Source: Eleginops maclovinus (Eukaryota; Chordata; Actinopteri; Perciformes; Eleginopidae). Taken from it: 64,000 bases of DNA. This document shows, piece after piece, positions 8,194 to 64,000 of this stretch. The position numbers and the translations under genes are program-made. Under the pieces are notes generated by a model that worked only from the letters and a program-made list of their open reading frames with translations, was not told the DNA's origin and made no database searches. The stretch is taken from assembly GCF_036324505.1 (NCBI RefSeq), contig NC_086361.1, positions 5,746,802 to 5,810,801 on the forward strand, written 5' to 3'. How positions within the stretch are numbered: the stretch's first letter is position 1; each line of letters starts with the position of its first letter.

Positions 8194-8622
8194 GTGAAAA
8201 GATTAGAACACCCATCACAGCAAACAAAACAGAAATCGACACGCCTGATGCAAATGCTTATACACCACCTCTTGATCCAGATAAACAATGTCCCATTCTC
8301 AAGAAGCCACATTCTCTTGCTAAATGTCGGAGCTTTAGAATGAAGACATTGGACGAGAGAAAAGGTTTACTCTAAGAGCATTCCATCTGCTACAAATGTT
8401 GCATATCTACAAGGCACAGGGCAAAAGACTGCAAAGCAGTGATTCACTGTTCAGAGTGCAACAGCAACAGTCACGTGTCAGCACTGCATGCTGGCCCACT
8501 GCCCTGGTCAGTCAAAGATCCAAAGACACCTACAGAGGGTCAAGGCGGGGAGCCAGACAACCCACACTACATTGAAACCTCCTCCAGTTGCACAGAGGTA
8601 TGTGGAAAGGGGCTACAGGGAA
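8194..8622 (+). pseudogene. BEL-2 gag/pol junction remnant with zinc knuckle
   Basis: In the frame ending at 8675 the region reads a conserved BEL segment with zinc-binding cysteines and histidines: CYKCCISTRHRAKDC, then HCSECNSNSHVSALH (about 8385-8490). A stop interrupts it near 8372, and the frame must shift near 8615-8625 to enter the long pol ORF. Upstream gag is deleted. Confidence 0.6.
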
Positions 8623-11223
8623 AAGTCATGCTCGAAGATTTGCCTGGTCTATGTTTATCCAACCAAGTTCCCTGAAAAGAAGAAGAAAATGTATGCAATG
8701 TTAGATGACCAGAGCAATGTATCACTGGCAAGGTCTTCCTTTTTTGATATGTTTGACGTACAAAGTGAAGCTCTACCATATACAATGAAGACATGCTCTG
8801 GCATAACGAACACCAGCGGAAGAAGAGTCAACGGCTTCATCATTGAGGGGATGGATGGGAAAGCACCTATGCCATTACCGACACTCACTGAATGTAACCA
8901 GATTCCGGATAATAGGAGAGAAATACCTACGCCTGAGGCTGCAGCTCATCACCCTCATCTGAAGCCCATCGCGTCTCTGATACCTCCACTGGATCCCTCT
9001 GCAGAGATCCTTCTCCTCCTAGGCAGGGATATCATCAGGGCACACAAGGTACGCAGTCAGGTGAACGGCCCACATGATGCACCTTACGCTCAATGTCTTG
9101 ATCTAGGGTGGGTGATCATAGGGGACGTTTGCCTCAGAGGAGCTCACAAACCTACTGTGAGTTCTTTCAAGACCAGCATACTTGAAAATGGGCGACCCAG
9201 TTTCCTCACCCCCTGTGAGAGCAGAATTCACGTCAGGGAGAGGTACACAGACACCTGCCCCCTAGGTGAAAAGACGCAGACTAAGGAGGATGTAGGCAAA
9301 CTCATATTCAAGCAAACAGCCGATGATGACAAGCTGGCACTTTCTGTAGAAGACCAGACATTTCTGGATATCATGAACAGAGAATTCCACAAAGACAAGG
9401 CCAATAGCTGGATGGCTCCACTCCCCTTTCGTTCCACTCGACAGCGCCTGCCCAACAACAGAGGTCAAGCCGTCCATCGTCTAATGTCCCTCCGTCGGAC
9501 GCTGAAAAAGAACACAGAGATGAAAGATCATTATGTGGAGTTTATGGAGAAGATGTTTAAGAAGAACCATGCAGAACGCGCTCCTCCCATTAGTGCTGAT
9601 CAAGAATGCTGGTATCTCCCGAGCTTTGGCATTTACCATCCACAAAAGCCTGGAAAAATCAGGATAGTCTTCGACTCCAGCGCTCAATGCAATAACGTAT
9701 CCCTTAATGATGTGCTGCTCAAGGGCCCAGATCTCAACAACACCTTGGTCGGTGTGCTCATCCGATTCAGACGCGAACCTTATGCAGTGATGGCAGATGT
9801 TGAGCAAATGTTCCACAATTTCATTGTCAACAAGGAACACCGGGATTACCTTCGGTTCTTGTGGTTTCAGAACCACGACCTGGATGGAGACATTGCAGAG
9901 TTTCGAATGAGGGTCCATGTATTTGGAAATTGTCCATCACCATCAGTCGCCATCTATGGGCTAAAAAGGGCTGCCATCGAAGGCGAGGAAGACTATGGGA
10001 GTGATGCAAGGATGTTCATCGAACGCCATTTTTATGTGGATGATGGATTGAAATCCTTCTCTTCAGAGACTGAGGCTATTGATGTGCTGCGCAGAACCCA
10101 GAAAATGCTGGCACAATCAAATATACGCCTGCACAAGATCTCATCCAACAGTTCGACTATCACAAGCGCCTTTCCAGATGAAGATCTGGCCACCGGACTA
10201 CAGGGCCTGGGTCTTGGACAAAGCACACCATCTATGCAGCGTACCCTAGGATTAGGATGGGACTTGTCCACAGACCTGTTCATGTTTCAGGTGACCACCA
10301 ATGAGAAGCCATTTACAAAGCGTGGAGTGCTATCAGTCATCAACAGCCTGTTCGACCCCCTCGGCTTTGCGGTGCCTGTCAGCATTGAAGGTCGTGTCAT
10401 TCTGAGAGACATCTCTTCTGATGTCTGTGACTGGGACGAACAGCTGCCAGAAGAGAAGCAAGGTATGTGGGAAAGATGGAAAGATTCTTTAAAGCACTTA
10501 CAGCAGCTTAGCATCCCAAGGATGTACACCTCAATCCCTTCGTCCGCAGCACAGAGGAAAGAGGTAATCATTTTCTGTGATGCATCCATAAAAGCAGTGG
10601 GTGCTGTTGCTTATTTGAAGCTTACCAACGCTGATGGTGACAGTGAAGCGGGCTTCCTCTTCGGTAGAGCGAAACTCGCTCCAAAACCAGACATCACCAT
10701 CCCGAGACTGGAGCTCTGCGCTGCAGTGCTGGCTGTGGAAGTAGCAGAATTAGTTCAAGAAGAGCTAGACATTGATTTGGATGAAGTGAACTTCTTTACA
10801 GACTCAAAAGTGGTGCTGGGCTACATCTCTAATGAGAAGAGACGGCTTTATGTCTACGTCCATAACCGAGTAGAACGTATCAGGCGATCCACACAGGTGC
10901 ATCAGTGGCATTTTGTGCCAACTCATCTGGATCCAGCTGATCATGCCACGAGAGCACTACCTGCTGAACAGCTCTCACTCTCTACATGGCTGAGTGGACC
11001 TGCTTTCCTCACAAGCCCGAGGCAAAGTCAAAGACAGGGGGAGCCCTTCAGCCTTGTCGAACCCGACGTGGATCCAGAACTGCGGCCAGAGGTCATTACC
11101 TGTACTACCACTCTGTCAGAAGGTAAACTAGGAAGTGCTAGATTTGAAAGATTTTCTAGTTGGAACATTCTGCTAAAAGTGCTTCAAAGACAGGCAAGAG
11201 AATGTCTGTCACGGCTGGCATGA
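8488..11223 (+). pseudogene. BEL-2 pol, first ORF (protease, reverse transcriptase, RNase H)
   Basis: A 911-codon ORF. In order: aspartic-protease region with MYAMLDDQSNVSLARS (residues about 68-85), reverse transcriptase with the YLPSFGIYHP segment and the catalytic box HFYVDDGL (about 513-520), RNase H with IIFCDASIKAVGAVAY (about 693-708) and FFTDSKVVLGY (about 769-779). The true polyprotein would start upstream in gag, so the ATG at 8488 is only the first in the open frame. It ends in a TGA after a small indel near 11200-11216; the next ORF continues the protein in another frame. Reverse transcriptase and RNase H motifs are intact. Confidence 0.85.
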
Positions 11224-11230
11224 ATGTAGC

Positions 11231-12622
11231 TTGAAGTTTGGTGAAGAACAGTTTCATCAGGCCAAAGTCACAGTCATTCGCGCCGTTCAGAGAGAGATAT
11301 TCTCTGATGAGTTAAAATGTTTGGAGCGGCATGAGCCTGTAAAGAAAGCAAGCCCGCTTAGCAAACTCAGTCCATTTGTGGACACTAGTGGACTTCTTAG
11401 AGTGGGAGGTCGGCTAACAAGAGCACAGCTGACTTTGGATGAAACACATCCTCTTCTTATTCCAGGAAGACATCATGTGACGGAGCTAATAGTCAGGCAC
11501 TTCCATGAAAAAGTGTGCCACCAGGGCAGACATTTCACTGAAGGGGCGGTTAGAGCCGCTGGATTTTGGATTGTGGGAGGAAAGAGAGCGGTGAGCAGCA
11601 CAATCTTCAATTGCGTCACATGCCGCAGGCTAAGAGGCAAGCAAGAAGAGCAGCTCATGGCTGACAGACTACGTTCAGACCCTCCATTCACATATGTGGG
11701 TCTGGATGTGTTCGGGCCATGGACTGTCACAGCAAGGAAGACAAGAGGAGGTTACGCAGAGGCCAAAAGATGGGCGGTCATCTTCGCATGTATGAGTTTA
11801 CGTACCATACATATTGAAATCATAGAATCAATGGACACATCATCATTCATAAATGCTCTGCGCCGGTTCTTAGCGATCAGAGGTGCTGCGAAGCTGCTCA
11901 GATCTGATTGTGGGACCAACTTTGTGAGCGCCTGCAAAGAGCTGCAGATTGACGAGAACGGATGCCACAACAAAAACATCGAAACTTACCTTGAAGACAA
12001 CGGTTGCCAGTGGCTGTTTAATCCTCCTCATGCGTCACACATGGCCGGATCCTGGGAACGCATGATTGGAGTTGCTCGCCGAATCCTGGATGCGATGCTA
12101 CTGCAACATGGGCATGCAAAGCTAACTCATGAGGTGTTAGTAACATTCATGGCTGAAGTAACAGCAATAGTGAACGCAAGGCCCCTTACAACAGTTTCCA
12201 CAGATCCAGAGCACCCTGTGATTCTCACCCCTGCCATGCTGCTCACACAAAATTATGGCACGTCACCAGCACCACCAGGCCAGTTTGAAAGCCGTGACCT
12301 CTTCAGAGGGCAGTGGCGGCGCGTGCAGTACATGGCTGAGGTCTTCTGGGCACGATGGCGAAAAGAATACATCAGCGGGCTCCAAGACCGACGGATATGG
12401 CGGACACCGAGACCGAACCTACAAGAAGGAGACGTGGTCCTGCTGAAGGATGGTCAGGAGAAGAGGAACGACTGGCCCATCGGACTCGTCAACAAAACCT
12501 TTTTTAGTGAGGATGGCAGAGTCAGGAAAATAGAGGTCAAAGTCATGCGGAAGGGCGAACAGAGATTCTTCCTACGGCCTATAAGTGAAGTCGTCCTTCT
12601 GGTTTCTAAGGACACTGCTTAA
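11231..12622 (+). pseudogene. BEL-2 pol, second ORF (integrase)
   Basis: A 463-codon ORF holding the integrase: an H-x-H...C-x2-C zinc-binding N-domain (FHEKVCHQGRHF and FNCVTCRRLRG), the DDE core with YVGLDVFGPW, LRSDCGTNF and SWERMIGVARRIL, and a C-terminal domain with EGDVVLLKDGQEKRNDWP. It is displaced by one frame from the ORF upstream; in frame, coding begins around 11216 (WHECSLKFGEEQ). Except for that break the integrase looks complete. Confidence 0.85.
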
Positions 12623-18555: not shown

Positions 18556-21500
18556 TCACTGAAGGTGAGATTGATCGTTTGAATCTTGAATTCTAACAAG
18601 AAATGTTTGCCATTTTTGTAGCGTGGAAGGCATGGCTTTGTTTACTCTAGCTGTGTGATATTCTAAATTAACAATATTATCCAAGTAGCTAATCCAAAGT
18701 TTACGAGGTGGAACCTGGGGGTTAATCCATAACTGTAAAATTACCTTTTTGGCAGCTGTAAAGCCTGTCATCATCATTCTTTGTTGGATCATGGAATACT
18801 CTAGATCTGTGAGATCGTTCAAAAGGCAAATGTGTGGTGTTTTTGGGAACTTGATTTCCAGCAGTTTTGAGAGGTCCTTTACTACACTAGTCCACAGATC
18901 TGCAATTATAGGACACTCCCAGAACATATGCAAAAATGTGCCAGGTAAAGCATTACAGATGTTACAGATAGAGCTTGGGGCACGGTTCATACGGAACCTT
19001 CTGTAAGGGGTTGCATATGCTCTATGGATAGTTTTGTAGTGGATCAGCTGGTGTGCTAGATTCTTTGAGCTTTGAGAGAGATTTATCCATATTTCATCCC
19101 AGTCCAGTTCTTGATTGTATGTGGAGAGTTCTCTGTCCCATATTTTCTCTATGGCTAGCTCTCCAGCAGACTTATTTAATAAAGCATTGTAAACCAACGA
19201 GACTCTGCCTCTTAAGTTATTAGAGGGTTGAACCCAGTTAAACAGTGGATGAATTATAGGTGGACGGTCCCATGGCACACCATATGCTCTGAGAGCAGAG
19301 CGTAGCTGGAGATAGACAAAGAATGATGAAGCAGGTAGATTAAATGTGATTTTAAGATTCTGAAATGAACACAGGCCATCACCGTCAAACATATCATTTA
19401 CAGCATTTATGCCCTGTGCGGACCAGTGTGAGTTGTGGAATGACTTGCCACCAATCAGGAATCTGCTGTTATTCCAGAGAGGAGTTAATGCACCTGTATG
19501 GAGCGGGACACCCATGCATTTCTCTGCCTCTTTCCAGACCTTTAATGAGTATGCAATTATACAACCAAGTTTAAGATTGGTGTTAGATCTTCCAAGTCCA
19601 GTAAAAAGCAAATCTTGTAATCTATGGGGCTTAACCATGGCCTCCTCTATAGATCTCCAGGGGACTTTTGAGCTGGGGTCCATCCAGATGTGTAGCGCTC
19701 TTATCTGAAAGGCCCAATGATAAAACTGGAAATTTGGTAAGGCAAGACCCCCCAATAATTTAGGTCTCTGTAATGTTGTTAGCTTTACTCTGGGGCGCTT
19801 ACCATTCCAAATGAATTGAGAGATTGATGAATGGATATCTTTGTAGTAGTTGGGAGGGGGGGCTAAGGGGAGCATAAAAAACAAAAAGTTGATTCGAGGT
19901 AGAATATTCATTTTTACTATATTTACTCTTCCTTGCAAAGATAGTGGTAGCCTATTCCATCTTTTAATATCTATTTGAATATTTTGTAGACCCTTGACAA
20001 AGTTTTCCTTCACAATTTGTGGAATTGTTGGAGAAACGTGAACACCTAAGTAAGTGAATGAGTCCTTAGTCGGAATGCCCTGGGGGGCTTTACTCTTGTT
20101 GTTAAGTGGCATCAAGATGGATTTATCCCAGTTTATCTTGTACCCTGAAAGCTGACCAAACTGCTCAAAAAGCTTCAATACTCGAGGGACTGACGATTCT
20201 ATTTTTGATAAGAACAAAAGTATGTCGTCAGCAAAAAGTGATATATGGTGGTCTACTCCATAGAGTGTGACAGGTTTAACATCCCTGCTTTGCCTAATCA
20301 TTTGCGCCAAGGGTTCTAAACAAAGACAAAACAAAATAGGAGAGAGAGGACACCCTTGGCGTGTACCTCTCTCCAGCTGAAAAGGCGATGAAATTTTGGA
20401 ACCTGTTAACACACATGCAGTTGGCGAATTATACAGGACCTTTATCATACTCAGAAATGTTGGTCCAAAGCCGAAATTTTCCAGTACAGCCCACATATAA
20501 GGCATTTCTAGTCTGTCGAATGCTTTCATTGCGTCCAGTGAAAAAACAGCCATAGACTCAGGGTAGGCATCAGCAGTATTTATAACGTGTAAAAGCCTAC
20601 GTATATTGTCTGATGCTGTGCGCCCTTTGAGAAATCCTGTCTGATCATGATTTATTAATTTACTCACATATGTATCTAACCTATTCACAAGCACCTTAGC
20701 AAATACTTTCACATCACAACAAATCAAGGAAATGGGTCTAAAATTACCACAGTCCAGTGGATCTTTTCCTTTCTTTAGTAATAGAGAAATTAGAGCCCTA
20801 TTTTGATCCCTGTGAAAAACGCCAGTCTCCAGTGCATAGTTAATGGAATCTAGAAAAAGAGGACCAACTATGTCCCACACAAACAAAAGTAGCTCAGGCG
20901 GTATACCATCTAAACCTGGTGATTTCCCTCTGTTAAGAGACCCAAGAGCTGTAGTAACTTCCTTGAGAGTAAGGGGAGACTCCAGTTGTTCAGCTTCCTC
21001 CTGAGAAAGCTTAGGTAACTCCAGCCCATCCAAAAAGGATCTGCTATTTGTGTGGTCCCATTTGACTTCTGAGGAATATAGATCTAAATAGAATTTCCTA
21101 AAAACTTCATTAATAGACACAGGATCTGTGAGGATAGATCCATTTGGGTCTTTGATGGCAAAAATATTGGCTTTTGATTCATTTTCTCTTAGTCTTAGGG
21201 CCAGAAGATGACTGGGCCGCTCTCCTTCAGAATAATATTTCTGCCTGGTGCGTTGGAGGATGAATTCTGTTTTAACTAGATTTAGTCGTTTGTATTCTGA
21301 GCGTAACGCATTAAGTCTACTGGCTGTAGTTTTGTTTGGATTTTGTTTTAATTCTAACTCCAATGTTTTGATGTTTGACTCCAATTCCTCAAGTCGTCTT
21401 TTTCTTGCCTTATTCAGACTAGAAGAGAAAGAAATGCAAAACCCCCTTATAAAACATTTCACTGTTTCCCACAGAATCTGTGCGTTCTCACATCCCTGTT

Positions 21501-22314
21501 TGTTAATCTCAATGAATTCAACCAGCTTTTCGCAGATTTGGGTGTCAAAATTCTTGTCTAATAATAATGAGTCATTAAAGCGCCATCTAGTAGCCTTTTG
21601 AGGAACACCTTTTGGGAAAATGAGGCACACTACTGGAGCGTGATCTGACAATAGAATGGGCAAGATGTCTGGTTTTGCGTGGTGAACTAGAGATTGGCTT
21701 AAAAATATGTAATCGATACGGGAGAAAGACTTGTGCCTATTTGAAAAAAATGTGTAATTCCTGGTGGATTTGTTATGAAATCGCCAAACATCTATGAGTT
21801 GTAGGTCAGTGACAAATTTCTGCAAGGCTGAAGAGAGGCGATGATCTGTGAGAGATGTTGTTCTGTCTATATCATCCATAGCGCAATTAAAGTCTCCCCC
21901 AATAATCAAGTTATATTCCGGCATTCCACAAAGTTTATCATTAATAGAGTGGAGGAAATCTGGATCAAAAATGTTAGGTGCATAAACTGAGGCTACCACT
22001 AATTTGGCCTGACCCATAGTAATGATTGCAAAAGTAAATCGACCCTGGTCGTCACTATAAGTGTGATTAACTGTTATTGGAAGGCTTCTCGTAGCCAAAA
22101 TCAGAACACCTTTAGTTTTATTGGGTGCACAGGAAGAAGATATAATTTTGTAGCGTCTGTTCTGAAAGCGATGCACGTCGGAACTTTTTAAATAGGTTTC
22201 CTGAATGATGGCAAGTATGACTTTTTTACTGTGTAGATACTCCAGACATCGCGTCCGTTTGATAGGTGAATTTAAACCATTTACGTTCCACGTTATTGCC
22301 TTTAAACCCTCCAT
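18556..22314 (-). CDS. L1 ORF2 protein (endonuclease and reverse transcriptase)
   Basis: A 1252-codon ORF of full L1 length. The N-terminal apurinic-type endonuclease shows AITWNVNGLNS, IQETYLK, GGDFNCAMDD, SRIDYIFLS and LSDHAPVV, i.e. the catalytic Asn, Glu, Asp and terminal His. The reverse transcriptase shows NRGKSPGLDGIPPELLL, NFRPISLICCDVKVFAKVL, RGTRQGCPLSPILF and the FADD catalytic box in ISLFADDILLFL. A C-x2-C-x7-H-x4-C finger (CNICNALPGTFLHMFWEC) sits near the C-terminus. It would nick DNA and copy its own RNA in place. No stop or frameshift is seen. The clade is L1/Tx1-like; exact family not determined. Confidence 0.92.
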   Translation of the reverse strand: MEGLKAITWNVNGLNSPIKRTRCLEYLHSKKVILAIIQETYLKSSDVHRFQNRRYKIISSSCAPNKTKGVLILATRSLPITVNHTYSDDQGRFTFAIITMGQAKLVVASVYAPNIFDPDFLHSINDKLCGMPEYNLIIGGDFNCAMDDIDRTTSLTDHRLSSALQKFVTDLQLIDVWRFHNKSTRNYTFFSNRHKSFSRIDYIFLSQSLVHHAKPDILPILLSDHAPVVCLIFPKGVPQKATRWRFNDSLLLDKNFDTQICEKLVEFIEINKQGCENAQILWETVKCFIRGFCISFSSSLNKARKRRLEELESNIKTLELELKQNPNKTTASRLNALRSEYKRLNLVKTEFILQRTRQKYYSEGERPSHLLALRLRENESKANIFAIKDPNGSILTDPVSINEVFRKFYLDLYSSEVKWDHTNSRSFLDGLELPKLSQEEAEQLESPLTLKEVTTALGSLNRGKSPGLDGIPPELLLFVWDIVGPLFLDSINYALETGVFHRDQNRALISLLLKKGKDPLDCGNFRPISLICCDVKVFAKVLVNRLDTYVSKLINHDQTGFLKGRTASDNIRRLLHVINTADAYPESMAVFSLDAMKAFDRLEMPYMWAVLENFGFGPTFLSMIKVLYNSPTACVLTGSKISSPFQLERGTRQGCPLSPILFCLCLEPLAQMIRQSRDVKPVTLYGVDHHISLFADDILLFLSKIESSVPRVLKLFEQFGQLSGYKINWDKSILMPLNNKSKAPQGIPTKDSFTYLGVHVSPTIPQIVKENFVKGLQNIQIDIKRWNRLPLSLQGRVNIVKMNILPRINFLFFMLPLAPPPNYYKDIHSSISQFIWNGKRPRVKLTTLQRPKLLGGLALPNFQFYHWAFQIRALHIWMDPSSKVPWRSIEEAMVKPHRLQDLLFTGLGRSNTNLKLGCIIAYSLKVWKEAEKCMGVPLHTGALTPLWNNSRFLIGGKSFHNSHWSAQGINAVNDMFDGDGLCSFQNLKITFNLPASSFFVYLQLRSALRAYGVPWDRPPIIHPLFNWVQPSNNLRGRVSLVYNALLNKSAGELAIEKIWDRELSTYNQELDWDEIWINLSQSSKNLAHQLIHYKTIHRAYATPYRRFRMNRAPSSICNICNALPGTFLHMFWECPIIADLWTSVVKDLSKLLEIKFPKTPHICLLNDLTDLEYSMIQQRMMMTGFTAAKKVILQLWINPQVPPRKLWISYLDNIVNLEYHTARVNKAMPSTLQKWQTFLVRIQDSNDQSHLQ

Positions 22315-22768
22315 TACGGTGAATCAAGTAGTGTAGCGATGTAGTAGTGACATCTGCAAAACTCTTTAATTATGCGTGCTGAGTGTAATAATCTTTTCGT
22401 ACTTGATAGGCCTATGCACAATACCAGCCAAAAATAGTACCGTCTACCAAAATAATAACAGGAGGGGAAGGGGGTATCTAAAACTATATACAGAGAACAG
22501 GTGCAAGCCGCGAGGACGCTAAATGCTCCTACAGGCTTTGCAAAACACAAAACATCGCTGACCCGTGGCATTATCAACAGCAGCGCAGCTCATCCCAGCT
22601 CGCAGAAAGATCCCCAAAACTCTAGCAACATAGCTGTACCCATATGTTAAGAGATAGTATACTATTCCTTAATAGCATCAGGTCACACAAACCTATCTTA
22701 ATTTTAATCAGACGGTGTTCAGTTTCTAATTCTGGACACCTATGGCCTACTTGTAATTACCCACAATG

Positions 22769-28746: not shown

Positions 28747-49172
<20,426 letters not shown>

Positions 49173-53578: not shown

Positions 53579-56500
53579 ATGGAGAAGAAAAGACGCCAAC
53601 TGACTCCAGAGCAAGATGCCCTGGAGTACATGCTTGCATGTAGAGACAAACCCTTCCTGGAGGAAAAGTTTATCAACTCCTTTAAAGGTAAGCGGTACAT
53701 TTCTGATAGGAGTCACTCCTTTGTTACATTAGATTTAATTTGGCGGACGCGTTTATCCAAAGCAACTTACAATAAGTACAAAAACCATAGAGATTGAAAC
53801 TCCGAATAACAACGAAAGTGCAGTTAATTAACTTCAAGCAGGTCATATCATTGTAACTACTGTGGAATGTGTTACACGACGTAAAGGGGCGACTGTGGCT
53901 GCGATGTAGTGGGATCGTCTTTCAACCAGAAGGTTGTGTGTTCGATCTCAGCCCTGGCAGTCAACCTGTCGATGTATCCTAAAAGCACATGAAGGTATTT
54001 CTGGTGCCTCATTAACTCATTGTGTTGGAAAGAGTTGAAATGACATGAAGTCCTTTGAGGAAAGATGTGCAAATCTCACATTTATAAATACACTAGGAGT
54101 GAAAGAACTCTGGTCATCACAGACTATTGTCAACTTAAATATGCCCAAATATTTTCCCTTGTAACTGTACGTTTGTTCTTTAGGATTAAAATTAAGACGT
54201 CCTTGGACATTGTACGATCAGTGAAAAATGTAACATTTCTGTATGGTTCTTTTCTCTTTTTCCACCTGTAACTTCGTTGTCCAAAGAAGTTTTGTCTCTC
54301 GTTGTGATAATATATTTGGTAAAAGTAAAACAATGATGTGGTTAATATCCAGATTCAACATTACTAGACTAATGTTTTCATGTTAATTTCTGCTTCATAG
54401 GGAAAGGAGTGTTTACCAGCAGAGCCATTGAACCATCCGCCTTTGTGGTTGAATATCGGGGGAACATCTTCTCTCCAAAACACACAACGCGTAGGAAGAA
54501 ATGGGGCGATAATCTGAACAAATATTTCTTCGAGTTTTCATGGAAAGGAGCACAGTGGTGGTAAGTTATGTCAGAAAGAGACATGGTTAGGTTATCTATC
54601 GTGTTTAAAAAAAAGAAAACAACATGGTAAAGTGCAGTCATTTAGAATTTTCTTTTTGTTGTTTCATAGAAGTTTTTTTTTTCTTTTTGCAGCGTTGATG
54701 CCTCAAAGGATGACGGGACCCTTGGAAGGCTTGTGAATGACGATCACATAAGTCCCAACTGTGAAATGAAGAAAATGTTCTCTGAGGGAAAACCACACTT
54801 GTGCCTGTTTGCTGTAACAAAAATATCTCCAGGTGAGGAGATAACTTACAACTACGGGGACTCGTCGTACCCATGGCGATCAACGGTAAGTTTGTATTAG
54901 AGAAGAAGCATGGATTTTGATCTTTTTATACGAATTACAGACACATTAAAACTAGTTCAGTCTTAACAGTCTTGCATACATTTCTTTAAAGTTATATAAC
55001 ATTAAGATTTTGTTGAAAATGTTTATGAGAAGAGATGATCTAATAGCAGCAATCGGTTGCAATGCTAATTTTTTGTTCTGCAGTGGAACTATCATCATAC
55101 AATAATGTTATTTTATTTTATACACATACAGACAATCTCATACAGTATCTGTTCAAAGTTCAAGGTTAGTTTATTTGTATAGCACATTTTAAGACACAGT
55201 GCTTCAAAGTGCTTTACAGTACATAGGCATTAACACATAATAATTAAAAACAAAAAAAGACAATTCATAAAAGGGATAAAAGAATGGTTGCAGCTAAAAG
55301 TGCAATGATAAGGCACGGTAATACGATCTCAGGATAGGCAGCATTAAAAAGAAAGGTTTTTAACCTTGATTTATTAGAACCCAGGGGGTTATGTGGTCAA
55401 TTATTTTAGTTCTGGTGAGGACTCTGGCGGCTACGTTCTGGATGAGTTGTAGTTTTCTTATTGATTTTATTGAGACCTGTTGACAACGTTTACAGTCATC
55501 AGGTCTGCTAAAAACAAACTCATCGAGGTTGTGTTGGGTCACAAGTGTTTTGAGACTGGTAATATTTTTCAGTTGGTAAAATGCTGATTTTGTGATTCCT
55601 CATTCATTTATACCAATATGAAAATAAAATGGTCTTTTGGACAAATAGACTTTTTTTCTGATGACAGCTGTTTTTTTATGTCCATTTATTCTGAATAATC
55701 AAGCAAATGTGCTCAGTTGAATCTACAGTCATTATTGGGCTTAAAGGCCACACTAATCTTTTTAGTATTACACTCTTTGAAGGTATAGATTTCAGTTGTG
55801 ATTATGTAGGATTGTCGAAATCTTGTGTGATCCAAACATTCCCAATAACTCCACAGAGTTGTTAAGTCCAAAAGTCAAAGTTTATAAATAAAAGATCGAT
55901 GTAATCTTTTTATAAATGCCTAACAATATTTTTATCAAAGAAAATATTATGCTTCAAAACCATATTAGTTGGTGTTTACCTTTTCAAACACTTCATATAT
56001 TCATAAGTTAAGCTTCATTTTATTAAAAAAGACGTGTTAATTTAGTCCAAGAAGCACTTTTTTCTATTATTGGAGGACTTAAAAAACATTTTTTAGGTTA
56101 ATCATAATAGAGCGCCACAGGGATGATATATTTTTGTAGGCCGACCTGGAAGTAAGCTGCACATGGGTTCCCTCGACCACAAAGCCATGCAATTTCTCCA
56201 TAGGGTTTTGGAATATTGTGAAAAATAAGATCTGTGGAAAACCAACCTGTTTGATGAATGCATGATAATCTCCACATGTCTACCTTACTTTTATAATTTT
56301 CGAAGCAGAAATGTAATCGCCAGAAGCAAAATGCTAACGTTATGCTATAAACAAACTACAGACCAGTACAGCAGAGTCGCAGGACTTCAATGTCAAGCCA
56401 ACTTAAGATCGTTTCAACAGATTTTTTAGCCACACTGAATTGAACTAGAAGTATTTCAAGCAGAACAGGGGAAAACAAACTTAGCGGGAGTGTTTACGTG

Positions 56501-59500
56501 TTCGGCGTAATGACGTACAATGTTCTCAACAACTTCTGTAGTCCTATTCAGTCACTTGTTAACAAACATAGCTTTTCAGACATGTAAACTCTTCAAAAAT
56601 CCCCACTTGGGGAGGGGGGGGTCACAGCTGATGTATTAAATGTCGTAGAACAAAATATGATCCGTCTCAACCACTAAATTTGTGTCTACCTTATTTTGAG
56701 CTATCTTCCAAAATCCTATGGAGAAATTGTATTGACTCTGAGACAAGGGAACCGGAAGTTCTAAAATGCTAACTTACTTCCGGGTTATAGGACTTGTTCC
56801 TGTGGCACTCTATATGCAGATATTTAAAGCTTCATTTGAAAACTTCAATAGAAGCTTTGAATGTAAAAAAAGCAGTTGGTACAGGCATTTTATTTCTTAA
56901 TGTTCAGAACTTAGGGCCTCCACACATCTTGCCAATACATGGTTTATATTAATCCAGGCATTACACAAAGTGAATCCATTAATTCATGTGTCAAACTTCC
57001 ACATGACTTTTATATTGCATTCAACCTTGCATGACGAATTTGACTGCATTTCGTTTTTTCATATTTCTTCATGTCTTAACAGTTTTGCACACATTTTTAC
57101 AGGAATCCTGTGAACAGCATACATCACAAACAGATCTAAATGCTGAAGAATCTTCATCTGAGGATAAAAGCGTAAGTGTTTGATGTATTTTCCTCATAAA
57201 ACACATGGCAGATGTGGCCAACCGGCAGTGCAAAAAGAAACACAAAGCATCTCAATGCTGATTTGGACGTTTGTTTTCATGGCAAAAGTCAAAGCTTAAA
57301 TTTTAAAAGTTGAATTGATGCATCCCTAGCGCTTAGTTTTTTCTTCTGATGCCATGGGAAATTGTTGGCTGTGATGACAAAATTAAGGTGGTTGAAGTAA
57401 GACTCTAATAAAATCAAAGTGCAATACTGCTTGATCAGGTGTATTTCATATGTCTAGTCTTGTGGTGGTGGTGGTATGAGTGGTCTAGTGCTGAACTATA
57501 ACTCCAAACCTACAAACCTATGCTGTTATTTTCTGCAGCTGAACTCTTAACCCATTTTTCAACCTATACAGGCGTCCTATGATGGACTGAGTACTTCCTA
57601 CTCAGGCATTCACGCTACTAAATCAACACCGAAGAATGAAACGGTGTGTGAAAGACCGTTAACAATTAAGACTGTACCACTTGATTATCAACATGTACGC
57701 TGCATTCACACACATCTGAAACTGACAGTTAAAAATTAACTTTGGGCCGTGTGTTTTCTTGTCTCAAATCAGTAGATTACATATTTTTCCATGTGTGTTT
57801 ATGTATATGAGTGTGTGCTTATGTAAGTTATCTACTGTATATTTAAAATGCTTTTACTCTATTTTCAGAATGAGTACCGGTCAGCTTGCAGCTCTGACAA
57901 TTCCAGCTCTGATGATGATGACTTTGAACTTCCTGACAGTAGAACAAGTCCTAGCAATTACAGTTTTACCAATCAGCTGGATTTCATGGACAATTCACCT
58001 TTTGCAGATCTAGACTCTTCTCAGGAGATGATGGGGACCTCTATGCTGCAACCAGACAATGCTTCATGCAGCCATCAGGAAGACAAGTCTGCTTTCAACT
58101 CTGAAGAACTCAACTGGAATGGAGACTCTAGACTCAGGAAGGCTAGAGCAAAGCCCAAAAGATGTTCTAGTCTCAATCAAAACTATTGTTATGTCTGCGG
58201 GAAAGGTCAAACTAAAATTGCTCGTCATCTCATAAAGCATGCCAAGGAAGTTCCTGAAATCGCTGAAGCTAAGTCATTACCAAAAACCTCCAAGGAACGA
58301 AAAAAGCTATTCGATGAGTTTCGTAACAAGGGAAATTACCGACATAACCAAGTGGTGTTGAAGAACAACAGTGGAGAGTTGAAAGCGAAAAGACGACCTA
58401 ACACCAGTGCGATCTCTTCTAAATCCCATGTGCACTGTATTCATTGTAAAGGCATGTATTTACGTAAGGACTTGTGGAGGCACGTATTCAGATGTCCTTC
58501 TAGGACAACGCCGTATTCTGCAAAGGACGGCAAGGCTAAAGTCTTAATTGAAACTGCTCTTTCAGAGTCACCATTTTCCAAAGAAATGACACCTGATGTG
58601 TGGAAGTTGCTTTCAACTATGAAACATGATGAGATTTCATCTGCAGTTATAAATGATTTTCTTCTTATACAACTGGCTCAGAATCTGATCAAGAAGCATG
58701 GCAATAACTTAAAGGGATATGAGAAGATTAGAAACACTCTGCGTGAAATGGGAAGACTTTTGTTGGCACTGTTTGAAATGTCGATATTAAGCTTTGAGGA
58801 GGCTATCAAACCCAAACATTTTTACAAAGTTGTAGAGGCTGTCAAAGACCTCGCTGGATTTGATAAAAAGATGCAGAGCTATAACATACCAACCCTTCCT
58901 TTGAAGATTGGAGGTTCGCTGAAAAAAATCTGTGCTGTTGTCCTCACTGGAGGTCATAGTAATGAGCAGATGTTGAAGGACGCAAATGCATTCTTGAAAC
59001 TGTTTGAAAATGAATGGTCTGAACTTGTCAACCAAACAGCCCGACCTTCGTCGGGTGGACGTAAAAGAAACAATGCGTCTACCATACCTTTCACACAAGA
59101 TGTGCAGATGTTCTACCTGTACCTAGAAACAACATCAGCATCTGCCATCGAAAGCATAGAAAAGTATGAAAGCCCACAGGTTTACAATGCACTTTGCAGA
59201 GTTACCCTCGCACAAGCATCAGTCTTAAGCAAATGTGCACCCGAGATTTCAAAAATGACACTGGAGACATTCCAGGAAAGAGAAAACTCTACCCAAGGGT
59301 TGTCCAAACACTTCATCAGGATAAATGTTCGAAACAGGAGAGGCAAAAATGTTGCTGCCTCGTTGACGTCTGAAATGGTCAGTGCAATAAATCTGCTTGT
59401 GAGCAAGAGGAAAGCATGTGGCGTACACAAAGACAATCCTTTCGTGTTTGCAAAGCCTGATTCTTCCCCCACAAGCACCCACTACGGAAAGAGCTGCGTG

Positions 59501-62500
59501 AATTTCTTTTCAGGTCTGTGTGGTGCCAAGTACCCAATACATCTCAGGTCGTTACATCTTCACATGCACCTTGCAAGAATCTTCCAGATTCTCAACCTGG
59601 AGAGCGAAGAGCTAAATCACCTGTCTAAACTGTTGGGTCATGACATCCGGGCCGACAGGGACTATTATCGTTCGCCAGAGGCAGCCGTGGAACTTGCAAA
59701 AATTGCAAAACTTCTTCTAGCAATGGAAAAGGGTTCTCTTGAAAGTTTCAAAGGAAACGAAATTGAGATTGAAGGTAGGCATCCAGTGTTATACTGTTTG
59801 TTCTGCTAGCGGTGGAGAAAAAACACTCTAAATACAAATAACGAATTATATGTTGCCTTTTTATTCAAGATGAATTGGAATCAGATATGGAGCAGGACAG
59901 CTCTGAAAGTGATGATGGTGAAGAGCACTTTGAAGAATCAGAAGTTTTCCTTCAGAAGAGGGGTATGTTGTAGAATGTGTCTGTTATATTCATACTTTCA
60001 TCTCTGAAATAACACCAAAATTCATAAACCCATACTATCGTTTCTAGATGCTGCTGAACAACAAGGCCTGACTCCTGAGCAAGATGCCCTTGAGCACATA
60101 AAGACTTGCAGAGACAAACCCTTCCTGGAGGAACGGCTTATTGACCCTATTAAAGGTTTGTTTTATTTATTCTTTTTTGCTAACCCTGCAAATGGGTAGT
60201 CCTAAAAGCAGACCGGTGCACAAGAGGATGAGTTCTGCACAATAACTCTTACTGAAATTGTTGATCAATAATTGGACGTGATCTGAAGTTTATTTTAGTC
60301 TTGCTTTTATAGGGAGGGGTGTGTTTACAAATGAAGCCATTGAACCATCCACCTTTGTTGTTGAGTATCGTGGGAACATCTCCCATCGCAAAGAATCCAG
60401 GAAAGAAAAGTGTGGGGACACTTTGAAAAACTATTTGTTTGACTTCTCCTGGATGGGAAGAGACTGGCGGTGAGTTTTCTTTTTCAGGCTCGTTATCAAA
60501 TCAAGTTAAACGTTGATTTTGAACAACGTGTGTGTGTGTGTGTGTGTGTGTAGTACATTTACACAAGATATTTCAACATCAGTATCCCTTGGCAGTGTAC
60601 ATTTGAAATAGTTAATTAGGTAGAATTTAAGAGGATGTTAAAAATGGCTTATTTCACCTGCAAAACTGAGTTGTTGGAGTGCAGCAGGTGTACGTTGCTA
60701 ATCATAAAATAATAAAGTATCTAACAATCTGTCACCAAATTCCAGCTCAATGTTGTACAAAATATATTTTGTCTGTGGTTTTAGTCTCATCAAAATATTT
60801 TTCTTTCTAGCATTCAAGCTTCAAATGAAGATGGTACCCTCGGGAGACTTGTGAATGACGATCATATAAGTCCAAGCTGTGAAATGAAGAAAATTGTCTA
60901 TGAGGGAAAACCACACCTTTGCCTGTTCGCAGTGACAGCAGTATCTCCAGGCGAGGAGATAACTTTCAATTATGGAGACTCCGCTTACCCGTGGCGCCCA
61001 AGAGTAAGTTTATAATCTATGTTGATGCCTCCACAGCGGTGACAGCCTAGGAGGAAGGCATTATGAATTGAGGTTGTCCGTATATTGTTCATCCGTTGTG
61101 TAATAGGTCGCCATTGTCAATATGTGTGTCTGCGTTTTGTATTTGTTCATACAGTGTATGACAGTATATATTTGAATGTTTATTATGTTTGTATTTGTAT
61201 ATGTATGCGGAACTGCAGGACGGAGTCCAGAACAAATTTCCTTACGGGGAAAATAAAGTATATCGTATCATATCTTCGTGAACACTATATCTCAGGTGCA
61301 CCTGGAGGGATATTAAACACATGTTGCGTGATCTGACAAATGAACTGATTAACATTTTGGGGTCTAAGGTTATTGTGACCTCACAAAACATGTTTTAGAA
61401 CATAATTCAAGAATCATATGCCAATCAGGACAATTTTACACCAATGTCTAACAGAATAAAACTTGAGACCCTGCATGACGAAATACATTTCCAAATTTTT
61501 GCAGGAATCCAGTGAACAGAATACATCACAATCCGATGTAAATGCTGACGATTCTTCATCTGAGGATAAAAGTGTAAGTGTTTGATGTATTTTTAACACA
61601 TGGCAGATGTGGACAACCGGCGGTACAAAAAAACACAAAGCATCTCATTGCTGATTTGGACATTCATTTTCATGGCAAAAGTCAAAGCTTTCATATCATG
61701 GCAGGATTGTGCATATCCAGCGAATTCTTCAAAGAATCTGCAGTTGAGTTTGCTTGCTGCTGTTGTCTGAGTGAGATCACAAATAACTAAAGCAATATTT
61801 AGCCTGTGCAACAAAAAACCACACAAAGAGAAAACAACTGCTACTAATGTTCAGTTGATGCATCCCAAGTGCTTGGTTTTTTCTTCTGCAAGTTTCTGAT
61901 GCCTTGGGAGACTGTTGGCCATGATTGCAAAAGTCATGGGGTTGAATTAAGACTCTAATATAATCAAAGTGCAATACTGCTTGTTCAGGTGTATTTCATC
62001 TGTCTAGTCTTGCAGTGGTGATATGAATGAGTGCTGTAGTGCTAAACTATAACTCCAAACCTATGCTGTTATTTGCTGCAGTTGAACTCTTGTTAACCCA
62101 TTTTTATCAAGCATAAATCTGTCTTCAAATTACACAATAAAAAGCAGCACAAAAACATCTTAGATTGCTCCAGTTTATTTCAAAGAGAAAAGGAAAACAA
62201 AACAAGTGAAACAGTGTTAAAACTAGAATATATGAGCCAGGGGGTGTACTCTTATTGCATACTGGGGTAGTAATAAATGTGTTTTTAATATTTGCAGGCT
62301 GAGGATTCAGCAGGATCCTTCGGTTCTGCAGCTTCCTGCTGTGATGAAGAATACGTGCCTTCTTCTAAAAAGGACAGCTTTAAAGAACACATTGATGCCC
62401 CACGCACTAGAGAGAAGGACAACAGTGATTCAAGCTCTGATGAAGAGCTCAAAGACCCCTCATTCACCAAAAAGAACTATTGTTACGTTTGCGGGGCAGC

Positions 62501-64000
62501 TCAGACTAAAATTTCTCGTCACCTTTTTACCCATAGAAATGAAGAGCCTAATATAGCTGCTGTGTTAAAACTACGCCGAAATTCGAAAGAACGAAAAGCT
62601 TTACTGAATGAGTTACGTGAAAGAGGAAATACCAAACACAATGAAGAGGTTTTGAAGACTCGTTGTGGAGAACTTAAAGTGAAAAGGAGACCAAGCGTGC
62701 CCACTCCTACTCAAACTGTTGCAGCCTGTTCGTACTGTAAGAACATATTCGTTCGTGAGAAACTAAGGCGACATATCCGCAAATGTTCTGCAAAGAAGTT
62801 CTCAGAACCTCAGATAGGTAAAAGGACCCGAGTTTCAGCTGCTGCAGTGTCAACAGACCACAAACAAATCTCATCAGCTGTGAGGGAGTTGTTAAAAACC
62901 CTGAGGAGGGATGACATTTCATATGAGATCTGGAATAGTCCCTTAATACTGCAGCTAGCACAGTTTATCTACCCCAGGAAAGAAACAACAGCAAAAACAT
63001 ACAGTCATGTCAAACTGAAGCTGAGGCAAGTAGGACGACTCCTGTTAGTATTGAAGAAAAAGTCAATATGTAGCTTAGAAGATGCTACTAAACCACAAAA
63101 CTTCAGCAAAGTTGTTGAAGTAGTGAGAGAGCTCTGTGGCTTCAATGAAGAAACCAAATCCTGTGAAAAACCAAGTCTCATGATGGAATTAGGAAATTCG
63201 CTGAAGAAAATTGCTGACATCAGCTTTGCCACAGCTTGGAAAGAGAATTCAGATACAGTGAAGATCCTAGAAGCACAGAAATTTATACAATTGTGCGAGA
63301 AAGAATGGAACTTTGTACCACTGAAATCAGGTGCAGACCAAATACCAACAATACCATTCGTACATGACGTGCAGCTTTTCCATCAGTGGATACAGAAGAC
63401 AGCAGCTTTTGCGGTTCAAAGCCTGACAATGCACGAAAGCTCTCCGGTCTACACTGCCCTTATGAAGGTGACATGTGCAGAAGTGACAGTCTTAAACAAA
63501 AATATGCCAGTAGTTTCAAAAGCAACGCTCAAGTCCTTCATTGAACGGGACCAGACAGATCTTCATAAAGACGATGCTGCTAGCCAATCAGAGTTTGAGA
63601 GAATGGTGTCCAACCACACTGTGGAAATCAACGTTAAGACCATTGGTGGCCAAAAAGTTACCGCTACATTGACCCCTAAATTGATCACTGCACTAACCCT
63701 GCTTGAGAAAAAGAGAGAGGCATGTGGTGTACATTCAAAAAATCCCTTTTTATTTGCAAGATCGGATGGCTCAGATAAAAGCTTCTACCAGGGACATCGA
63801 CTCTTCACCAATTTTGCAGCTCGCTGTGGTGCAAAGAACTCTACAAACCTCCGCTTTACGCTTCTTCATAAACATATTGCCAAAGTTTTCCAGATTGTCA
63901 GCCTCACGAATGACAAGGTTGATCAGCTAGCCAAACTCTTGGGCCGCGACATTCCGACTGACAGAGAGTACTATCAGACGCCAGAGGCCGCTGCTGACAT
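53579..64000 (+). CDS. Tandem SET-recombinase fusion protein (two KMT5A-like SET and two Crypton-like modules), 3' end beyond window
   Basis: Coding exons: 53579-53687, 54401-54560, 54693-54885, 57103-57171, 57572-57643, 57869-59774, 59870-59962, 60048-60155, 60313-60469, 60811-61003, 61505-61573 and 62298 to the edge. All phases agree and the frame stays open for at least 1610 residues. Order: SET 1 (residues 1-154), acidic linker, two zinc fingers, recombinase-like fold 1 (about 202-836), linker exon, SET 2 (about 868-1020), acidic linker, zinc fingers, recombinase-like fold 2 (from 1044). The SET type is that of KMT5A (H4K20 methyltransferase), so a chromatin role is likely. The second unit lacks its own start codon and follows a splice acceptor, which argues for one transcript; two adjacent genes remain possible. 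No symbol is known to me. Confidence 0.75.
53722..53810. repeat. Dispersed repeat (GGCGGACGCGTTTATCCAAAG type)
   Basis: AATTTGGCGGACGCGTTTAT and CCAAAGCAACTTACAATAAG match a repeat very common in teleost introns. Family name not certain. Confidence 0.5.
53885..54045 (+). repeat. tRNA-derived SINE fragment
   Basis: GGGGCGACTGTGGCTGCGAT resembles an A-box head, and GTGTTCGATCTCAGCCC a B box; the body reads CCTAAAAGCACATGAAGG. An old copy, in the intron between exons 2 and 3. Confidence 0.55.
55150..55545 (-). repeat. L2-like LINE fragment
   Basis: On the minus strand near 55540-55370 the translation includes SIRKLQLIQNVAARVLTRTK and DHITP, the conserved end of the L2/Rex reverse transcriptase; 55160-55220 has the TTTATTTGTATAGCACATTTT 3' sequence. 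Confidence 0.65.
56110..56810. mobile_element. MITE-like element with long inverted repeats, TA-flanked
   Basis: Ends GAGCGCCACAGG (56110) and, reversed, GAGTGCCACAGG (ending 56810), each next to TA. About 110 bases at either end are inverted copies (shared CAATTTCTCCATAGG, TTTTGGAA, GGAAGTAAG). No ORF. Such features suit a Tc1/mariner-derived MITE. Confidence 0.7.
57103..57643 (+). other. Acidic linker exons 5-6
   Basis: Exon 5 (69 bases) reads ESCEQHTSQTDLNAEESSSE; exon 6 (72 bases) reads ASYDGLSTSYSGIHATKSTP. Exon 5 has a counterpart in unit 2 (61505-61573), exon 6 has none. Both are phase 0, so either can be skipped without a frameshift. Confidence 0.7.
57869..59774 (+). other. Zinc-finger and Crypton-like recombinase module 1 (exon 7)
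   Basis: One 1906-base exon. After an acidic, Ser-rich head come a C2H2 finger (YCYVCGKGQTKIARHLIKH, 58187 on) and a C2HC finger (HCIHCKGMYLRKDLWRHVFR, 58433 on), then a helical region and the tyrosine-recombinase fold (about 59090-59740). Fold marks are YNALCRVTLAQASVLSKC, INLLVSKRKACGVHKDNPFV, GAKYPIHLRSL and LLGHDIRADRDYYRSPEAAV. The box-II His and the Tyr are present, while positions expected to be Arg I (SKCAPEISK) and Arg II (LHLHMHLA) are not arginine. It would bind DNA but probably not recombine. Exon 8 (59870-59962) is an acidic linker to unit 2. Confidence 0.75.
60048..61003 (+). other. SET domain 2 (KMT5A-like), exons 9-11
   Basis: Same exon structure and phases as SET 1: GLTPEQDALEHIKTCRDKPF, GRGVFTNEAIEPSTFVVEYR, RLVNDDHISPSCEMKK and GEEITFNYGDSAYPW. 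The residue equivalent to Cys before the VDA motif is Arg (WRIQAS against WCVDAS), and Tyr in EITYNYG is Phe-Asn-Tyr, keeping the second Tyr. It has no start codon of its own. About two thirds of residues match SET 1 by eye. A (GT) run lies in the intron at 60529-60550. Confidence 0.8.
61190..61280 (+). repeat. LINE 3' tail fragment
   Basis: CTGCAGGACGGAGTCCAGAA, TTACGGGGAAAATAAAG and TATCGTATCATATCTT match the tail style of fish LINEs (ATAAAG then repeats of TATC). It lies in the intron after exon 11. Confidence 0.5.
61505..64000 (+). other. Linker exon 12 and zinc-finger/Crypton-like module 2 (exon 13, cut by the window edge)
   Basis: Exon 12 (61505-61573) repeats the ESSEQNTSQSDVNADDSSSE linker. 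Exon 13 starts at 62298 and stays open to the edge. It has the C2H2 finger YCYVCGAAQTKISRHLFTH, the C2HC finger CSYCKNIFVREKLRRHIRKC, and the fold with VYTALMKVTCAEVTVLNKN, LLEKKREACGVHSKNPFLF, GAKNSTNLRFTLLHKH and LLGRDIPTDREYYQTPEAA. The position of Arg I (NKNMPVVSK) and Arg II (LLHKH) are non-Arg as in module 1, and the His of LLGH is now Arg; Tyr is kept. The intron 61574-62297 has no coding feature but matches intron 5 of unit 1. Confidence 0.75.

Follow-up and report, generated by a model that had tools for sequence, protein, structure and literature searches.

A doubled SET and tyrosine-recombinase-like gene, with a predicted extension into ZMYM4-like zinc fingers, in the fish Eleginops maclovinus

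We analysed a 64,000-nucleotide stretch of the Eleginops maclovinus genome (hereafter the window; RefSeq assembly GCF_036324505.1, contig NC_086361.1, positions 5,746,802 to 5,810,801, forward strand), the last part of which holds a gene in which a KMT5A-like SET domain, zinc fingers and a predicted tyrosine-recombinase (YR) fold follow one another twice. Twelve phase-consistent GT..AG exons on the forward strand, from 53579 to the window end, read as a single stop-free frame of 1,610 codons, in the order SET, acidic linker, zinc fingers and recombinase fold (module 1, M1), then the same again (module 2, M2), with two zinc-finger motifs per module as assigned by eye. The exons, in window positions, are as follows.

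53579..53687, forward: exon 1 (M1), start codon and SET1 N-terminal helix; similar starts in relatives
54401..54560, forward: exon 2 (M1), SET1 first part (GKGVF, VVEYRG)
54693..54885, forward: exon 3 (M1), SET1 second part (WCVDAS, GRLVNDDHISPNC, ITYNYGD, PWR)
57103..57171, forward: exon 4 (M1), acidic linker; near-copy of exon 11
57572..57643, forward: exon 5 (M1), linker; present in the database protein P0121 and matched by P0129
57869..59774, forward: exon 6 (M1), linker, two zinc-finger motifs, core-binding and catalytic parts of the first recombinase fold (YR1); predicted model m100d3979507d
59870..59962, forward: exon 7, acidic linker (DELESD..) between YR1 and SET2; similar linker then SET2 in other fishes
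60048..60155, forward: exon 8 (M2), SET2 N-terminal helix; its opening ATG is not in frame
60313..60469, forward: exon 9 (M2), SET2 first part
60811..61003, forward: exon 10 (M2), SET2 second part; relative to M1, C to R, D to Q, PN to PS and Y to F
61505..61573, forward: exon 11 (M2), acidic linker; near-copy of exon 4
62298..64000, forward: exon 12 (M2), zinc fingers and second recombinase fold (YR2); cut by the window end and continuing to about 64089

An earlier note on this DNA, made from the letters alone, had proposed these twelve exons as one frame, and the proposal is borne out by P0121 (2,665 amino acids, from the window's contig, C13), the first 1,610 residues of which equal the window frame letter for letter. 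This exact match and the absence of stops rule out a chance frame. That the frame stands above chance is argued further by the same order being encoded in other fishes and by the ratios of nonsynonymous to synonymous divergence (dN/dS) between M1 and M2, a per-domain comparison that the note had suggested, which are 0.25 for the SET domain, 0.25 for the zinc-finger part and 0.35 for the recombinase part. The modules are identical at 334 of 818 aligned positions (41%), with dS values of 0.9 (SET), 1.8 (zinc-finger part) and 1.4 (recombinase part), the latter two near saturation; exons 4 and 11 are an outlier at 0.16, over 23 codons only. The intron beside exon 4 is 79–92% identical between modules (repeat families D2, D3 and D7 to D10, of which D3 includes exon 4), against 73–80% for the SET and zinc-finger exon stretches in the same comparison; such likeness suggests later gene conversion or local duplication in the exon 4/11 region. 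When the stretches 57090-57470 and 61492-62020 are compared, exon 4 together with portions of the next intron shows 86–92% identity, above the other exons. Tandem repeats were looked for and none were found.

The arrangement recurs in other fishes, in homologues that are gene predictions throughout, retrieved with an M1 query (best 120 of 203 matches) and with a query of both modules (92 matches). Models with two SET domains, two recombinase domains and their zinc-finger parts, each of full length, comprise P0121 and those of Micropterus (P0122), Anabas (P0123), Leuresthes (P0124) and Anableps (P0125). The junction from YR1 through the linker to SET2 is read through in Micropterus, Anabas, Leuresthes, Characodon, Larimichthys, Lates japonicus, Chaenocephalus and Mugil, and the same order is indicated by the order of matches in Thalassophryne, Anableps and Anoplopoma; the SET-recombinase order that the note had proposed seeking in other teleosts is thus found, with the two-module join in several of them. 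Judged from these predicted proteins, the two-module gene is real and conserved.

Module 2 is not the end of the frame; the note had missed a ZMYM4-like continuation downstream. P0121 contains two stretches each of SET, TRASH_ZMYM4 and zf-FCS, and after residue 1611, beyond the window, it matches TRASH_ZMYM4 (1.8e-19) and zf-FCS (3.5e-13); its residues after 1595 map to 63954-83350 of C13 in window numbering, up to 19.4 kb past the window. Exon 12 ends in EIDIP at a phase-1 intron and the next exon starts DKLELD, an arrangement that matches the passage from YR1 to exon 7 (DELESD). We predict that the window frame continues into ZMYM4-like zinc fingers. Among the 92 two-module-query matches, zf-FCS or TRASH_ZMYM4 occurs in 14, the window's own and those of 13 other species (Micropterus, Leuresthes, Characodon, Larimichthys, Lates japonicus, Lates calcarifer, Chaenocephalus, Anoplopoma, Etheostoma, Chelmon, Cyclopterus, Champsocephalus and Perca, the last without SET). 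A C-terminal QRICH1/DUF3504 part is present in the relatives P0129 and P0130, while no DUF3504 end was found downstream of the window gene to 124000 (window numbering), a stretch that includes a gap of 500 N. This assembly gap (L011; C13, 84527-85026 in window coordinates) comes shortly after the final MYM fingers that could be mapped. Directly upstream lies a zmym4-like gene, also missed by the note.

37827..49142, forward: zmym4-like gene, extent from matches only (tblastn with fish ZMYM4-like proteins)
38414-41489 and 43006-43982, forward: its MYM zinc fingers (tblastn)
about 46.2-47.9 kb, forward: its QRICH1-like part (tblastn)
about 47.9-49.1 kb, forward: its DUF3504 part (family matches C13:5794800-5795865)

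The MYM part of P0121 is 24–54% identical to this gene in matched stretches, which points to a tandem paralogue.

An alternative interpretation is that two or three adjacent same-strand genes (module 1, module 2 and the ZMYM4 paralogue) have been merged by gene finders; the join is known from gene predictions, and some models stop after module 1 (P0002, P0006) or after module 2 (P0123, P0125). We consider this unlikely because exon 7 has no in-frame stop, exon 8 has no in-frame start before the SET2 helix, the first in-frame Met being inside SET2, and similar introns and linkers stand at the join in other species. Stand-alone modules are countered as a main reading by the same YR1-linker-SET2 junction across fishes, and we infer one transcript across the modules.

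The note's description of paired KMT5A-like SET domains, each with zinc fingers and a predicted recombinase fold behind it, holds: both modules match Pfam SET (E = 2.1e-18 for M1 and 4e-15 for M2), KMT5A is the best SET match by sequence (67.2 bits), and the SET fold, predicted on the relative P0003, is nearest that of KMT5A. SET1 retains E, Y, C, D, N, N and the second Y (NYG) in 15 of 15 aligned rows and the first Y (ITY) in 11 of 15. The His of the NH motif in the cofactor site is replaced by Asp in all 15 M1 rows and by Asp (12) or Glu (1) in the 13 M2 rows; as the ND form is also found in 97 of 102 other rows of the SET-recombinase family, it is likely to be ancestral rather than a mark of decay. 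SET2 has C changed to R in 8 of 13 rows, and in the window D to Q, PN to PS and Y to F besides. On this alignment, SET1 is conserved and SET2 is drifting. A Phe/Tyr product switch in SET2 was considered and dropped, Tyr being retained in 8 of 13 M2 rows. These substitutions could instead mean that the gene was domesticated but is enzymatically dead, with both SET domains serving merely as protein- or nucleosome-binding folds beside the ZMYM4 fingers: Asp stands in place of the NH-motif His in both, and SET2 has the C-to-R change and, in the window, D to Q and PN to PS. We think this doubtful, since SET1 has E, Y, C, D, N, N and the second Y intact in every row and the ND form is so widespread in the family.

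Structure prediction gives the recombinase part the core-binding and catalytic domain fold of a tyrosine recombinase, as the note had proposed; its further label, Crypton, is not supported. DUF3504 (PF12012) had no match in M1 or M2 at E = 1 and was absent among the families listed (25 of 51) for 45 aligned proteins, a Pfam scan found no transposase families in either module, and hhalign gave no match between the recombinase profile and the ZMYM4 DUF3504 region, where the template was thin (four sequences, from 4 of 7 DUF3504 proteins); families beyond those in the fold-match lists may match as well. The box positions of the catalytic residues were assigned in 178 aligned recombinase domains, from the alignment and from known motifs. 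A deletion beside box I is common to 53 of the 178, none of which keeps Arg, Arg, His and Tyr together; the window tetrads read C, H, H, Y (M1) and N, H, R, Y (M2), so that the box I and box II arginines are gone from both. All four residues are kept by 109 of the remaining 125 domains, although the HxxR position is Thr in 116 of these 125 and even the intact family is thus non-canonical. The recombinase folds of the window are therefore likely to be without cutting activity, and the loss of these arginines, together with conservation between species, argues for the domestication that the note had raised.

In a quick-search tree of 67 recombinase domains, made without bootstrap, the arginine-less domains form a clade (31 rows; support by the Shimodaira–Hasegawa-like approximate likelihood ratio test, SH-aLRT, 100) nested in the intact family (a 42-row branch, 99), and split into M2 (14 rows, 100) and M1 (17 rows, 89). 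Partial agreement comes from a tree of 53 SET rows, which groups 14 M1 rows (98) and 11 M2 rows (88) and leaves two M2 rows and Thalassophryne outside. Taken together, the trees suggest that M1 and M2 are likely to derive from one duplication before the sampled fishes split.

Single-module proteins with the same SET, zinc-finger and recombinase order, mostly annotated as uncharacterized, occur in fishes, a frog, a sea urchin and a coral. Those of fishes with intact recombinase residues are about 34–50% identical to M1 among the matches listed, and a C1-like cysteine-rich stretch is present, below the curated cut-off, in two of seven scanned. The sea urchin and coral proteins (P0177, P0178) share the order, for which reason the fusion may be older than vertebrates. 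In a further protein search, 22 of the best 120 of 945 matches carry a Pfam SET, under a length limit that omits longer SET-bearing proteins; recombinase models without SET are plainly common.

Within the window's own genome, the recombinase part of the relative L020 matches at least 31 stretches, merged to at least 20 places, of which eight (M1 and M2 included) have a SET match within 10 kb on the same strand and 12 have none there. Copies on C18 and C20 are 98.35% identical over 4,426 bases, 97.86% over 2,335 and 99.26% over 946, introns included (about 7.7 kb in total); each has its own different insert of about 4–5 kb, and the likeness ends sharply on both sides. Their recombinase exons differ by a dS of 0.010 and a dN of 0.008, recent and with no visible constraint. 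The last 946 bases of the unit have two strong genome matches, the rest of 56 being weak and partial, and no terminal direct repeats were seen by eye; for these two copies alone, segmental duplication is possible. A further candidate at C18:22293042 was set aside because it matches SET and a short C-terminal stretch with no recombinase. Alosa sapidissima (shad) has six annotated loci on six contigs with proteins 98.6–99.8% identical, locus pairs in Vanacampus, Misgurnus and Sparus show 99.6–99.8% protein identity, and some models are named after unrelated genes (PAK1, NCK2a, rnf214), as expected from insertions into genes. The recombinase part of Alosa is 96.6% identical to that of Phoxinus and 90.4% to that of Astatotilapia, which is high given the distance between those fishes; a frog protein shares 71% identity with the C20 copy, a level that many fish proteins also show. 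Horizontal transfer is possible, and these patterns suggest that the SET-recombinase unit is a widespread family that looks mobile. A recombinase copy with two stops (L044; C12:12666580-12671274) is 88% identical to a single-module protein of Sparus aurata and has possibly moved recently or horizontally.

With relatives in the same genome that look mobile, the window gene might itself be a still mobile element copy rather than a host gene. We regard this as very improbable, because the recombinase arginines are absent from both modules, the ZMYM4-like join is common to 13 other species, and the modules, at 41% identity, are not near-identical copies. A still mobile two-module element is rejected on the lost arginines alike. 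Other long frames of the window lie at 8443-12619 (forward), 18559-22323 (reverse) and 32378-33460 (reverse); by eye, these are presumably a BEL/Pao-type polyprotein, a long interspersed nuclear element and a Tc1/mariner transposase.

Our favoured reading, in which we have about as much confidence as doubt, is that the window gene comes from a SET-carrying mobile lineage that was domesticated, duplicated once and fused to a ZMYM4 paralogue, probably giving a DNA-tethered lysine methyltransferase whose recombinase folds have likely lost cutting. Origin from a mobile element is suggested by the trees and the copies. A mobile element encoding SET, zinc fingers and tyrosine recombinase in one protein would have landed beside a tandem zmym4 paralogue; a single module duplication would have preceded the divergence of the sampled percomorph fishes, and the two-module unit would then have been spliced onto the paralogue. 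The zinc fingers and disarmed recombinase folds are predicted to hold DNA, possibly the ends of related elements or host sites derived from them, and the MYM fingers to anchor the protein in a chromatin complex. SET1, with its sampled residues mostly retained, is predicted to methylate a lysine (of a histone, for example H4K20, or of another protein), and the drifting SET2 is perhaps structural. A bolder proposal, which we think unlikely as it stands, is that a vertebrate DNA transposon family carries a KMT5A-like histone methyltransferase fused to its tyrosine recombinase, and that fishes domesticated one lineage of it, as two disarmed modules with ZMYM4, for host defence or gene regulation by methyl-marking the ends of its mobile relatives. 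Silencing of related elements, which the note had suggested, would be conjecture.

The nearest precedent is SETMAR, the classic example of a methyltransferase fused with an enzyme of transposon origin. In SETMAR (Metnase) of primates, sequence-specific DNA binding comes from a domesticated DNA-mobility enzyme to which the SET domain is coupled (PMC6326780, PMC8327481), and the human protein is described as a sequence-specific histone methylase (PMC6326780). The window gene likewise has SET and a domesticated DNA-mobility enzyme in one protein. It differs in that SETMAR has a single SET with a mariner DDE transposase, from an element that landed downstream of a host SET gene, whereas here a KMT5A-like SET and a tyrosine-recombinase fold are doubled and accompanied by ZMYM4-like fingers, and SET was already within a mobile-looking unit. 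SET was likely not attached to the recombinase within the host gene, the SET-recombinase pair being already the unit of the family that looks mobile. By this comparison the window gene would be a SETMAR-like domestication with an unusual source. KMT5A (SET8) is nearest in SET sequence and predicted fold, but the window SET has ND for NH and is joined to zinc fingers and a recombinase fold. ZMYM2, ZMYM3, ZMYM4, WOC and QRICH1 are reported as Crypton-derived domesticated tyrosine recombinases (DUF3504) that have lost most of the catalytic tetrad, ZMYM4 being named among them (PMC3212892). The window gene resembles these as a domesticated recombinase, and it adjoins, and is predicted to be joined with, ZMYM4-like sequence; in contrast to them, its M1 and M2 folds gave no DUF3504 match and are coupled to SET domains. 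The single-module SET-recombinase proteins share its module order but have one module, mostly intact recombinase residues and dispersed copies. A literature search on titles and abstract openings, with partial coverage, found no description of the double SET-recombinase architecture, in line with the note's view of it as undescribed, and nothing pairing Crypton with KMT5A.

The same recombinase fold has apparently been recruited a second time, by the gene for the heterochromatin reader MPP8 (M-phase phosphoprotein 8): fish MPP8 models (P0179-P0181) have a chromo domain and a recombinase that has lost its His, and in two of three its Tyr too. An open frame of 832 codons in the window's genome (L050; C7:4449810-4454450) has the same zinc-finger and recombinase parts and matches part of one fish MPP8 model at 62% identity. 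This recruitment hints that the recombinase family supplies parts to silencing proteins. The methyltransferase seems to travel with the element itself, which raises the question of whether a transposon benefits from placing chromatin marks where it inserts; the doubled, ZMYM4-joined form would serve as a natural experiment, SET1 having been retained and recombinase catalysis apparently given up.
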